Below are positions 8,079 to 52,540 of a stretch of DNA of 64,000 bases, one piece after another. Origin of the DNA: Candidatus Dormiibacterota bacterium (GTDB lineage Bacteria > Vulcanimicrobiota > Vulcanimicrobiia > Vulcanimicrobiales > Vulcanimicrobiaceae); assembly GCA_035532035.1 (NCBI GenBank), contig DATKRS010000004.1, positions 186,001-250,000 on the forward strand. Direction: 5' to 3'. Every line of letters begins with the position of its first letter. Position 1 is the stretch's first letter. The notes beneath the pieces were generated by a model, which was not told the DNA's origin, did not search any database, and saw only the letters and a list, made by a program, of their open reading frames with translations. The position numbers were made by a program, and so were the translations under genes.

Positions 8079-11000
8079 AGCTCGAAGATTTTTCGATTCG
8101 CCACGAGCGCGTCATCCTATTCGTCGTAGCGGTTCTGGTGGTTCTGGGCGTGTGGAGCTACACGCAGACTCGGGCGGCGATCTTTCCGACGATGACGTTC
8201 TCACGGATCGACGTCGTGGCAGATGCGGGCAACCTGCCGCCCGAGCAGATGCACGTCAGCATCGGGATTCCTTTGGAGCGGGCGTTCCTCGGCCTGCCGT
8301 TCGTGCAGCGCGTCCTCACGACGTCGGCGCAAGGCAGCACGGAGCTCGCCGTTCAGTTCGACCCCAAAACGAACGCGCAGACCGACCTGCAGTACGTGGA
8401 AGCGGCCGTGGCGCGTACCCGCTCTGCGCTTCCACCGGACGCGAACGTTCAAGCGAACATCATCTATCCTCAGAGCGAGCCGATCCTGGAGTACGGCCTG
8501 ACCTCCCGGACCTTCTCGCAGACGTTACTGAACGAATACGCCAGCTTGAATATCGTTCCGGAGATTTATGGCATTCGAGGATTGTACCGGGCCCTCGTGG
8601 TCGGCGGTCCGCAGCGAGAGTATCACGTCGAGCTCGATCCCGCCGCGCTCGCGTCCTCGAAGCTGACGCCAGCGAACGTGGTGAACGCCATCGCGGCGGC
8701 CAACGACATCGCTGCCGTCGGCATCTCGCAGGCGTACTCGCAGCGTAGCGCCCTGCTCGTGGACGCGCAACTCCGCAACGCCGCCCAGCTGGAGCGCATC
8801 GTCGTTCCGACCATCCAGGGCCCGGGCGTCACCGTCGGCTCGCTCGGGGCGGTGCGCCTTGGAACCGCTCCGGAGAGCGTCCAAATGTCGATCGACGCGA
8901 CCCACGGCGTCGGCCTCAACGTCTATGCGCTGCCGGGGGCGGATCAAGTTCGACTCGCGGACGCCGTGAAAGCGCGCGTGGCGCGCGTCGCGTCCAGGCT
9001 TCCGGCGGGCATAGGGATTCGCCGGTTCTGGGATTCGACGAAGATCATCGTCGACTCGCAGAAGAGTTTACGCGATGCAATTCTGATGGGAGCCTTGCTC
9101 GCCATCGGCGTAATATTCTTTTTCTTGCGTAACGCGCGCATCACTGCGGTTGCGGCGCTGGTGATCCCTGCGGCAATGGCGATCGCCGTGCTCGCGATTC
9201 ACCTGTTCGGCGAATCGCTGAATATCATGAGCCTCGGAGGCCTCGCGATCGCCGTGGGTCTGATCATCGACGACGCGATCGTCGTGGTCGAGGCGATCGC
9301 GCACACGTTACACGACGTTGCGCGGATCTCCGTGCAGGATGCGGTGAGAGCGGCGATGCGCAAGCTCGTCGCGCCGATGACCGCGTCGACGTTGGCTACC
9401 GTGGTGGTCTTTGCACCGCTCTCACTGGTCGGCGGCGTGCCGGGCGCGTTCTTTCAATCGCTCGCGCTGACGCTGACGTGCGCTCTGGTCGTCTCTCTTG
9501 GGCTCGCGCTCTTCGTAACCCCCAGCCTGTTTCGCCGCCTTTTGGCAACGCGCGTGCCTCGGCTCGAGAGCGAGGGCATTCATCGCGTCTTGGATCGCTA
9601 CGAGCCGGTTCTGCGCTGGGCGCTTGCAAATAGGCGCGTCGCGTATGCGATGGGCGGCGGCATCCTCCTGGTCACCCTCGCGCTTCTGATGACGTTGCCG
9701 ACAGACTTCTTGCCGAAGCTGGACGAAGGCCAGTTCGAAATGATCTACCGGATGCCGGTCGGCACGACGCTAGCCGCTTCCGATGCTGCAGCGCTGGCGG
9801 TGGAACGGATCGTGCTGCGCGATCCTGCGGTCGTCGCCGAGGGGCGTTTTACCGGCATCGACACGAACGGATACTCACCGACGCCTGTGCGCAACGGAAC
9901 GTTCCGCGTGATGCTCGCGCCGCTCGGGCAACGCAGCGCATTCGACGCGGTCGCAAATCGGCTGCGCGATGGGATCGCGGCCGCCGTACCGGCGATGCAG
10001 CTCGACATCCATCAGATCCTCGAAGATATGATCAACGACGTTTCGGGGGCGCCGGCTCCGATTCAGGTCGTGATCGGCGGCTCCGATCAAAACGTGCTCG
10101 TGCAGACGGCAACGCGCGTTGCGGCGACGATTTCGCGCGTTCCGGGCGTCGCAGACGTCTTCTCCGGCGTACGGAGAGACGACCCCACGATGCGCTTAGA
10201 GCCGAACTTCGCGCGCCTAGCGCGCATGGGCGCCGACACGCCCGCGCTGGCGCAGGCGTTGGCGGCGGGAGCGCAAGGCACGATTGCCACGCAGCTCCCG
10301 GAGCAGACGATGCTCGTTCCGGTCAGGGTCGCGATGGCCGGCGCCGCCGGCAACGCCGGTGCCGTTGCAAACGCCGTCAACGTCGCCGGGGATGCGATTG
10401 CGTTCACACAGATCGCCAGTGCACGGATGGATCGCTCAACGACCGACGTCACCGACATCAACGGCGTGCGATCGATGATCGTTACCGCAAACGTCGGAGG
10501 GCACAGTCTTTCCACCGTCGTGGCCGGGCTGCGTCGCGCCATAGCGGCGTCGAAGGTCCCTCCCGGCTATACCGTGCACATAGAGGGCGCCTATCAAGCG
10601 CAACAAGAGTCCTTTCGTCAGTTTGCAGAGGTCATCGGCATCGCGTTGGTTCTCGTTTTCAGCGCGATGCTCGCGTCGTTCAAATCTTTTCGGCAGCCGA
10701 TCGTCATCCTGACGGCGGTTCCTCTCGCGCCGATCGGGGTAGCACTCGGTCTCGTGCTGACCCATACGCCCTTCAACGTCTCGTCATTCATGGGCTTGTT
10801 GTTGCTGATCGGATTGGTCGTGAAGAACGGCATCCTGCTCGTCGATGCGGCCAATCGCTTTCGACGAGAAGGAAACGACGTGACCGAGGCGCTCGTGCTC
10901 GCCGGCCGGGAACGTTTGCGGCCGATCCTCATGACGACGTTCGCGACCATCGGTGGGCTCTTGCCGCTGGCCTTCGGAATCGGAGCGGGTGCCGCGATGG

Positions 11001-31110: not shown

Positions 31111-31746
31111 ATGCGAACGGTCTACCATGAAGCGCTCGAAGGGACGCGGCTCGACGTCGTGCGCCTGGGCGCGCTCGTCGGAGACGCACTGCGTGCGGCA
31201 GCCGACGCGCTCGAGCGGCGGAACGCGGCGACGGGGGCGCGCGTCGTGGCAGGCGACGACATCGTGGACGACTTGCGCCGCAAAATCGAGTCGAATTGCA
31301 TCGAGTTGATCTGGCGACAGCAGCCGGTCGCGGGCGAGCTGCGAGAGATCGCCGCGATGTTGAACCTGGCGACCGATCTGGAGCGGATCGGCGACTATGC
31401 CGTGGAGCTGGCAAAGAACGCGATCAAGCTCGCCGACATGCCCTTGCGGCCGCAGCGCGTCGAGATCGACCGAATCGTCGGCGTGGTCCACGGGATGTTG
31501 CTCGATGCGATGAGAGCCTACTCCGAGCGCGACGACGCCCTTGCAAGCTCGGTGATCGAGCGCGACGCGGAGGTGGATCGCCTGTACAAACGGAGCATCA
31601 CCGTCCTGCAAGAAGAGATGCAAGCCGATCCGGAGATCGTTCCTGCCGCGACGCGGTTTCTGTTCATCTTGACGTCGCTCGAGCGCGCCGGGGATAGGGC
31701 CGGCAATATCGCCTGGCACACCAAAGACATGCTCGGCCTCGGCTAG
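31111..31746 (+). CDS. phoU: PhoU-family phosphate signalling protein
   Basis: 211 residues made of two three-helix PhoU repeats, with the metal-binding-type motif LNLATDLERIGDYAVELAKN in the first repeat and ILTSLERAGDRAGNIAWHTK in the second. PhoU restrains the PhoR-PhoB response through the PstSCAB transporter. No pst or phoR/phoB genes are adjacent, so this is an orphan copy. The start at 31111 fits the protein family and follows TATAAT by 6 nt; another ATG at 31093 would put that promoter inside the gene. The stop codon TAG is the first part of the following repeat array. Confidence 0.88.
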   Translation: MRTVYHEALEGTRLDVVRLGALVGDALRAAADALERRNAATGARVVAGDDIVDDLRRKIESNCIELIWRQQPVAGELREIAAMLNLATDLERIGDYAVELAKNAIKLADMPLRPQRVEIDRIVGVVHGMLLDAMRAYSERDDALASSVIERDAEVDRLYKRSITVLQEEMQADPEIVPAATRFLFILTSLERAGDRAGNIAWHTKDMLGLG

Positions 31747-31996
31747 TTTTGTTCAGGCTGTTGTCGCCTCGGGGCTCGTTTACCATAGTAAACGTCGCCC
31801 GCTCGGCTCCTAAGCCTGAACAAAACTACCTCGAGAGCATGCTGTTGTCGCCTCGGGGCTCGTGTACCATAGTAAACGTCGCCCGCTCGGCTCCTAAGCC
31901 TGAACAAAACTACCTCGAGAGCATGCTGTTGTCGCCTCGGGGCTCGTTTACCATAGTACACGTCGCCCGCTCGGCTCCTAAGCCTGAACAAAACTA
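31744..31996. repeat. 84-bp tandem repeat array bounded by 16-bp inverted repeats
   Basis: Units start at 31757, 31841 and 31925, the last truncated (about 2.9 copies). The whole array is framed by TAGTTTTGTTCAGGCT (31744-31759) and its exact complement (31981-31996), so the left arm includes the phoU stop codon. Each unit holds a hairpin around GTTTAC-CATA-GTAAAC, extended by G+C-rich flanks. Units differ at one base on either side of that hairpin (GTGTAC in unit 2, GTACAC in unit 3). The period is a multiple of 3, so both strands stay open, but no coding evidence exists. Part of the unit recurs after rpoC. Confidence 0.93.
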
Positions 31997-32019
31997 GGTC
32001 GAAACCGGATCGAGAACGT

Positions 32020-33156
32020 GTGACGCCTTTGCCGCGATCTGAGTTTCTCGTTCCCGAGAAGCTCGTGTATCTGAATCACGCTGCCACGGGCATTCTGCCG
32101 CGTTGCACGCGCGATGCGTGTACGGCTTTCGTGCAGGCTCAAAGCGAAGGCGGTGTCCTGGGAACGTTTCCATACGAGCTGCGGATGCCGGAGTTTCGCA
32201 CGAAGCTGGCGGGGTTCATCGGAGCTCAAGGCGATGAGGTCGCCTTTCTGCGCAGTACGAGCGAAGCGACGAACGTTCTTGCGCTGGGCCTTGACTGGGC
32301 CCCGGGCGACGAAGTCCTTCTATGCGACAACGAGTTCCCTGCGAACGCGATTCCGTGGCTTGCGCTGCGTTCGCGCGGCGTCGTGGTGCGTTTCATCGAG
32401 ACCGCGCGCGAACGGATGACGCCGGAGGTGCTCCGGCATTCGCTCTCTGCGCGCACGCGCGTCGTGACCGTGTCATGGGTTTCGTTTGCGGACGGATACC
32501 GGCACGATCTCGCCGCACTTGCCGAGATCGCGCACGCGCGTGGAGCGTTTCTCTGCGTCGACGGCATTCAAGGTTTGGGAGTCTTCCCGATGGACGTGGG
32601 TGCTTGCAACGTGGACGCGTTCTATGGCGGCGGGCAGAAGTGGATGCTCGCACTACAAGGAATTTCGTATCTGTACGTGGGCGAAAGACTGCGCGAGCGG
32701 CTCAGCGTCGCGGCGCCCGGGTGGCGGTCGCTTTCGAACATGTGGGATTTTCTCGACTATGCTCAGCCCTACGCCGGGGACGTGTCGAGATTTGAAGGCG
32801 GAACGCCGAGTTTCATCGGCGCCCTCTCGCTGGCTTCATCGGTCGAGTTCTTGGAACGCTACGATCGTCGCGCGGTCGCGGAGCACGTGCTCGCGCTCAC
32901 CGATCGTCTCGTCGAAGGCATAGAGCGCGCCGGCGCCGAGACCGCCGCTCCGCGGGGGCCGGGCGTCTCTTCGGGCATCGTAACGATCGTTGCGAGCGGC
33001 GAGGATCCGGTCGAGCTCGGGCGCAGACTGCAGCGCGAAGGCATCGTCACCACGTATCGAGGCAACGGCATCCGCGTGGCGCCACACGGCTACAACACAT
33101 TCGAGGAGATCGACGCGCTGCTCGACGCAATCGCGCCTAGTATCCGCCTTCCTTAA
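32020..33156 (+). CDS. Class V aminotransferase (cysteine desulfurase/selenocysteine lyase-like)
   Basis: 378 residues, GTG start. The N-terminal LNHAATGILP region, the SEATN cofactor-phosphate segment, the aspartate in FLCVDGIQGLG and the PLP-binding lysine in YGGGQKWM place it in the fold-type I class V group. The closest subfamily seems to be isopenicillin-N epimerase or CsdA-like proteins; the cysteine of SufS/IscS loops is not obvious. The substrate is therefore open. It starts 24 nt after the repeat array, so its promoter must lie in or next to the array. Confidence 0.82.
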   Translation: MTPLPRSEFLVPEKLVYLNHAATGILPRCTRDACTAFVQAQSEGGVLGTFPYELRMPEFRTKLAGFIGAQGDEVAFLRSTSEATNVLALGLDWAPGDEVLLCDNEFPANAIPWLALRSRGVVVRFIETARERMTPEVLRHSLSARTRVVTVSWVSFADGYRHDLAALAEIAHARGAFLCVDGIQGLGVFPMDVGACNVDAFYGGGQKWMLALQGISYLYVGERLRERLSVAAPGWRSLSNMWDFLDYAQPYAGDVSRFEGGTPSFIGALSLASSVEFLERYDRRAVAEHVLALTDRLVEGIERAGAETAAPRGPGVSSGIVTIVASGEDPVELGRRLQREGIVTTYRGNGIRVAPHGYNTFEEIDALLDAIAPSIRLP

Positions 33157-52481: not shown

Positions 52482-52540
52482 AGAGCCCGCGCACATGTCG
52501 CCCGCTCGGCTCCTAAGCCTGATCGAAGCTGCGCGCTCTT
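52481..52540 (+). terminator. rpoC 3' hairpin carrying the array core repeat
   Basis: AAGAGCCCGCGCA (52481-52493) pairs with TGCGCGCTCTT (52530-52540) with a small bulge. The loop holds a 26-bp core (52497-52522, beginning GTCGCCCGCTCGGCTCC) that is identical to part of each 84-bp unit after phoU. It lies immediately after the stop codon. Confidence 0.6.

Follow-up and report, generated by a model that had tools for sequence, protein, structure and literature searches.

The window, by which we mean the entire stretch of 64,000 nucleotides analysed (from genome G000), carries an array of short tandem repeats between phoU and a class-V aminotransferase gene, and a decayed copy of the repeated element directly after the rpoC stop codon (Table 1). 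Tandem Repeats Finder returned a single strong array for the window (31757-31996; period: 84; copies: 2.9; match: 98%; score: 466), far above any other in score, in agreement with an earlier note that had described nearly three 84-bp units from the letters alone. We give the array span as 31754-31996, with units starting at 31754, 31838 and 31922. The internal hairpin that the same note had placed in each unit was recovered three times (Table 1), and the exact inverted repeats said to frame the array proved to be slightly longer than claimed (17 nt instead of 16 bp; 31743-31759 and 31981-31997; 100% complementary). The left arm does supply the phoU stop codon, as proposed: the TAG (31744-31746) lies within the left arm of the hairpin, and the PhoU domain was confirmed by Pfam.

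Two features go beyond the earlier note, namely that the left arm is missing from units 2 and 3 and that the core recurs elsewhere in the genome. The left arm (consensus across the family, from an alignment of 21 copies: TTTCGTCCATGCC) and the right arm of each unit are complementary for 16 nt or more. Units 2 and 3 open instead with CATGCTG after a spacer of 9-10 nt, and the tandem unit is composed of the core, the right arm and about 9 nt of downstream flank. A single unit was predicted to fold as RNA into one long hairpin (-44.8 kcal/mol; z = -8.0; 0/200 shuffles). When the array is folded as a whole (-110.7 kcal/mol; z = -6.1), the left arm is predicted to pair with the unit 3 right arm, which closes a long-range structure. 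Chance is excluded as an explanation.

Table 1. Coordinates of the array, its neighbours and the related copies referred to in the text (positions in the window, or in the named locus)
Feature	Position	Strand	Evidence or remark
phoU coding sequence, 211 aa	31111..31746	+	PF01895 PhoU, E 2.6e-38
Left arm, 17 nt, CTAGTTTTGTTCAGGCT	31743..31759	+	sequence; single occurrence, ahead of unit 1
Unit 1, complete (left arm, conserved core, right arm)	31744..31828	+	105 bits to covariance model R1
Inner hairpin of unit 1, GTTTAC CATA GTAAAC	31778..31793	+	equivalents at 31862-31877 and 31946-31961
Right arm of unit 1, AGCCTGAACAAAACTA	31813..31828	+	repeated at 31897-31912 and 31981-31996
Unit 2, core and right arm without left arm	31838..31912	+	73.5 bits to R1; GTGTAC at 31862-31867
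Unit 3, core and right arm without left arm	31922..31997	+	74.4 bits to R1; GTACAC at 31956-31961
Class-V aminotransferase gene, downstream of the array	32020..33156	+	PF00266
Decayed element directly after the rpoC stop	52485..52535	+	right core half CATGTCGCCCGCTCGGCTCCTAAGCCTGA inside AAGAGC..GCTCTT stem; intact copies at the orthologous positions of G002, G005 and G001
Copies adjoining tRNA genes	L029:1486-1585, L078:1501-1599, L035:1097-1154		tRNA-Trp in two genera; tRNA-Val
Element-encoded C-termini	L083, L091, L099 (G018), L112 (G106)		EKL, AGKL, AGKS ends

Units 2 and 3 each carry a one-base change in the inner hairpin: T to G at 31864 in unit 2 (giving GTGTAC opposite GTAAAC) and A to C at 31959 in unit 3 (giving GTACAC opposite GTTTAC). 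The two changes are complementary to each other exactly as had been claimed, and the accompanying idea, that one unit was copied from the other by inversion or gene conversion, held in part. An exchange between arms is intelligible, because the whole-array fold joins CGUGUAC, from the 5' arm of unit 2, to GUACACG, from the 3' arm of unit 3, and because 9 of the 21 aligned family members have U-A in this column and another 9 have G-C. Reading unit 3 as an inverted unit 2 failed, and inversion of a unit was rejected, since all three units share one orientation and a single arm base differs. Templated copying between the arms of neighbouring units (template switching) and compensatory change both fit the complementary bases, two differences being too few to decide between them.

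A covarying hairpin repeat within one order of Eremiobacterota

The phoU array is a tandem triplication of a scattered hairpin-forming repeat and not a local oddity. A unique and strain-invariant array, one of the possibilities that the earlier note had set against its own reading, was rejected: the core is repeated in the genome, copies occur across the order, and copy number at phoU differs between species. A second copy of the core lies after rpoD in the same genome (94% identical to the phoU copy by BLAST), and sister genomes hold many copies. The alignment of 21 copies defined a conserved core of about 66 nt, roughly GTTGTCGCCTCGGGGCTCRTKTACCRTAGTAMACTTCGCCCGCTCGGCTCCTAGGCCTGAACGAAA, inside a long hairpin whose internal loops are conserved and asymmetric and whose stems are variable. 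The stems covary strongly, with 17 of 26 pairs changed on both sides and 91.9% of cells paired. None of 500 shuffles reached any of five covariation measures, and sliding the pairing partner lowered pairing from 92% to about 40% or less.

Searches with the covariance model found ten copies in G000 in addition to the remnant after rpoC. The phoU array accounts for three, rpoD and bamA are each followed by one, and the C4 23S rRNA gene contains two; the other three, which are weaker, lie in the C35 operon between the 16S and 23S genes. Matches were obtained in 65 of 149 Eremiobacterota genomes, all within two families of one order. Copy number ranged from 0 to 13 per genome within one genus, and G018 held at least 67 copies.

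Rfam 15 gave nothing at the gathering score or with E below 0.01 at the elements, and a known RNA family was rejected, the matches being at chance level. Carriage by phages or plasmids is not supported, as two core patterns had no exact match in IMG/VR and the phoU region had no match among plasmids. An exact-pattern scan of public genomes returned two Eremiobacterota loci and two probably accidental matches (Pseudanabaena and Xenorhabdus), and a search of the literature on Eremiobacterota repeats found nothing relevant.

Placement at stop codons and beside stable RNAs

Gene context was assigned to 83 copies by using a simple codon-statistics gene finder. Because this gene finder mis-called the phoU strand and called one run of N as coding, we base placement on many loci and not on single calls. 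A same-strand stop codon was found -8 to +14 nt from the first modelled stem pair in 57 of the 83 copies (which are not independent), and the expectation for the same distance was 1.1% at random positions in G018 and 5% at intergenic positions. Sense-only placements outnumbered antisense-only placements by 50 to 4 (p = 4e-11; 83 copies, not fully independent). In G018 alone 22 of 27 copies were sense and none was antisense-only at that distance. The stem extended outward past the model by 7.2 bp on average, compared with 3.6 bp for mismatched flanks, and in 32 of 40 well-aligned copies it extended as far as the stop codon.

The stop codons fell into two distance groups. At about 6-10 nt the stop, mostly TAG, stands at the outer edge of the left arm; at -3 a TGA lies within the arm motif CTGATTT, and the last 2-3 residues of the protein together with its stop are read from the left arm (proteins ending ..EKL, ..AGKL and ..AGKS; Table 1). 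TAG was in excess before the element in G018 (14/22 vs 95/320; p = 0.0017). Taken together, the distance groups, the element-read C-termini and the TAG excess indicate that the element, or its target, in part makes the stop codon. Upstream genes share no obvious function, and some copies lie within co-directional gene pairs (tuf-rpsJ and bamA-ompH). Unrelated long hairpins also start at the tuf stop codon (L205 ~1130-1330 in G018; L195 in G006), and these sites may thus be shared by two or more palindromic families.

Copies near stable RNAs, whether in rRNA operons or next to tRNA genes, were all antisense to those transcripts. Some abut tRNA 5' ends (tRNA-Trp in G005 and G086; tRNA-Val in G007). 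In the C4 23S rRNA gene, one copy has taken the place of a GTAA hairpin loop, and the C35 23S gene keeps this hairpin intact; the two genes thus form an independent pair of filled and empty sites. The C4 and C35 rRNA operons (L102 and L104) are only ~78-90% identical over aligned 23S stretches. This divergence is either genuine or due to a contig end of foreign origin, and about 2.5 kb of the C4 operon is a run of N. An insertion of about 800 nt was also seen in the 23S rRNA gene of L102 (~9490-10292; G000:C4:309490-310292); its open frame reads like a LAGLIDADG homing endonuclease (GTLLGDG.., FMDDGS..), and the insertion is probably a group I intron; Rfam flagged no intron.

Gain, loss and tandem amplification

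The phoU-aminotransferase junction was empty in G002, G004, G006 and all other genera checked, and at element-free sister loci the aminotransferase start was mostly close to, at, or overlapping the phoU stop. Copy number at phoU was 3 in G000, 1 each in G003 and G007, and 0 in G002, G004 and G006; in G001 the copies lie 11 nt further downstream and the contig ends inside the array. With sister species empty or single-copy at this site, we conclude that the insertion was gained and then tandemly amplified in the G000 lineage.

Other sites were variable as well. At the rpoC 3' end the element was present in G002, G005 and G021, in two tandem copies in G001 (126-bp unit) and in decayed form in G000 and G009, and in most relatives this position is occupied by an ordinary terminator. 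Between tuf and rpsJ it was found in G015, G029, G016, G018, G009 and G079 and was absent elsewhere. A tree of 102 copies placed every G018 copy but the one at tuf in one clade, brought the tuf copies of G016, G018, G009, G015 and G079 together, and joined the units of the window with the G003 phoU copy and the G000 rpoD copy, a topology that indicates bursts within genomes and long retention at some sites.

Tandem arrays are not confined to phoU. A three-copy array in G018 (L094:2593-2842; 87 bp) likewise carries the left arm only at unit 1. Further tandem or near-tandem copies were seen in G018 (L085:372-583), where units after the first lack the left arm or have another sequence in its place, and both units of the G001 rpoC tandem (L022) have kept it.

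Interpretation and comparison with known repeat systems

We interpret the array, with a probability of about 0.72, as a tandemly amplified copy of a palindromic repeat that is interspersed, non-autonomous and MITE/REP/YPAL-like and is confined to a single order of Eremiobacterota. A DNA palindrome of about 100 nt with an asymmetric conserved core would spread within genomes through some mobilising mechanism. Surviving insertions would be those at gene 3' ends or in loops of structured RNAs, because little harm is done there, and some would supply the final codons and the stop. A sense insertion at a stop codon would be transcribed as a long hairpin that starts the 3' UTR and would most likely stall exonucleases, invite RNase III or slow terminating ribosomes. 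Judging from REPs close to stop codons, from ERIC and from NEMIS (PMC12306157, PMC2229807), the element probably affects mRNA 3'-end decay or terminating ribosomes. At phoU, one insertion entered ahead of the aminotransferase gene in the G000 lineage, and two rounds of duplication of the core, the right arm and about 9 nt of flank followed, with replication slippage at the hairpin as the probable cause.

The RAYT/Y1 transposase family (PF01797) was absent from G000 and 14 relatives including G018, and only G007 gave partial matches (two, at G007:C191:2926-3155, split by a frameshift or stop, and the only ones in the genus). A RAYT-mobilised REP was rejected on the lack of a Y1 transposase in these genomes; a RAYT is not required for CGTC REPs (PMC3733652). 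Among the arm ends listed for G018 in a search for a parent transposon (61 forward, 66 reverse), pairs stood ~80 bp apart and no gene-flanking pair was seen. The sites gave no clear target-site duplication, many flanks being mirror images and not direct repeats; CTAG stands on both sides at phoU, L062 and L114, as a duplication or as part of the palindrome, and other sites show mirror images only.

The sense bias and the conserved asymmetric loops are the point that a symmetric selfish palindrome explains least, and the combination of a strong sense bias with an asymmetric core keeps a functional-RNA reading alive. Such an element could be a selected and not primarily selfish cis-acting RNA of the 3' UTR, a stop-codon hairpin to which a protein or the terminating ribosome binds, which controls mRNA 3'-end stability or translation termination and which was recruited to new genes because it is useful; we consider this possible, at well below even odds. 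The 50:4 orientation, the covarying stems with conserved asymmetric loops, the reach of the stem to the stop codon and the grouping of tuf copies by locus across genera all speak for it, as does the down-regulation of translation by E. coli REPs lying <16 nt from a stop codon (PMC12306157). It accords poorly with the erratic presence of the element within one genus, with its free loss or replacement at phoU, rpoC and tuf, with antisense copies inside 23S rRNA and beside tRNAs, and with upstream genes that have no obvious function in common. Retention of the tuf copy in several genera suits a functional element equally. More speculatively, the element may be a transposable RNA hairpin directed at translation stop codons, inserting in a single orientation and in many cases providing the stop itself. 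Its conserved asymmetric loops would then be the contact for a host factor, either at the terminating ribosome or at the 3' end of the mRNA, and the element would be a portable 3'-end module that is kept for long periods downstream of essential genes, tuf among them.

A special form of intrinsic transcription terminator is unlikely. Its location just 3' of genes, the ordinary terminators at orthologous rpoC sites without the element, and the T-runs that end the rpoC copies of G002 and G005 and one G081 copy would be expected of a terminator, but the 8 nt after the stem contain a mean of 2.2 T (at least 5 T in 7 of 83 copies) and the array itself has no terminator-like site. Copies also lie inside co-directional pairs, and presence in probable operons (phoU-aminotransferase, bamA-ompH, tuf-rpsJ) argues against strong termination. 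A U-tract terminator was rejected, with no T-run after the stem and none at the array. An assembly artefact, in a metagenome-assembled genome, is also an unlikely source of the three copies: short reads cope poorly with 84-bp tandem repeats and the G001 contigs break inside its phoU array, but the three units differ in sequence and flank and similar arrays occur independently in G018 and G001. Integron attC sites are hairpins with conserved unpaired features and a variable stem, placed in one orientation right after stop codons, an anatomy that the Eremiobacterota element shares. A structured DNA recombination site of that sort, or a target of a site-specific integrase, as distinct from the REP/MITE kind, is nevertheless highly improbable, since inspection of the 21-copy alignment found the GTTRRRY / RYYYAAC boxes absent from the conserved ends, and copies are scattered after housekeeping genes (one is inside rRNA) and not in cassette arrays.

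For the mobile palindromic repeat, the best reading is an apparently undescribed family of YPAL/ERIC/REP-like repeats and not a new kind of system, because YPAL/RU-2 offers the nearest description, REPs differ, Rfam gave no match and no paper on repeats of the phylum was found. For a phylum that has received little study, this is a clearly delimited repeat family, and its placement rule (stop codon, sense strand), which known palindromic repeats show only weakly, is unusually tight. Its covarying stems and conserved loops offer a natural test between selfish palindromes kept symmetric by template switching and RNA elements under selection.

According to the parts of PMC2229807 used here, YPAL (RU-2) of Yersinia is a palindromic non-autonomous repeat of ~100-170 bp with filled and empty sites; its targets span or adjoin dyad symmetry, it is co-transcribed with upstream genes, and it makes target duplications of 3-26 bp. 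The Eremiobacterota element resembles YPAL in its empty and filled orthologous sites (phoU, rpoC, tuf and the 23S rRNA loop) and in its targets of dyad symmetry, here rRNA hairpin loops and terminators. Unlike YPAL, it does not clearly show target duplications, and those parts of the same source do not describe for YPAL the stop-codon anchor or the sense bias. This comparison is one of descriptions, no sequence relation being known, and Rfam, which gave no significant match, may not hold YPAL.

REPs are 20-40 bp long with an unpaired GTAG/CGTC tag at one end, and CGTC REPs have no dedicated transposase (PMC3733652); translation is affected by REPs that lie up to 15 nt from a stop codon (PMC12306157). 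Our element is like REP/BIME sequences in consisting of short interspersed palindromes beyond stop codons. It is unlike REPs in its length of ~100 nt, in a stem base that is paired, variable and runs into host sequence, and in having no conserved tag outside; CGTC occurs only inside the stem (TTTCGTCC), which sets it apart from tagged REPs. In the parts of PMC2229807 and PMC2759123 used here, ERIC (RU-1), NEMIS/Correia, RUP and other MITEs form hairpin RNAs that alter neighbouring mRNAs via RNase III or RNase E and can supply C-terminal codons, as can the Eremiobacterota element. Terminal inverted repeats, by which MITEs are recognised, are present (G018 ends: GGGAAGC.CTGATTT / AAATCAG.GCTTCC), and these ends vary between species. 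ERIC, NEMIS/Correia, RUP and the other MITEs differ in their TA termini and target duplications, neither a parent transposon nor a clear duplication having been found here. Finally, the element is like the 23S rRNA IVS in being a long hairpin inserted into a 23S rRNA hairpin loop, and unlike it in that the family also stands after protein genes.
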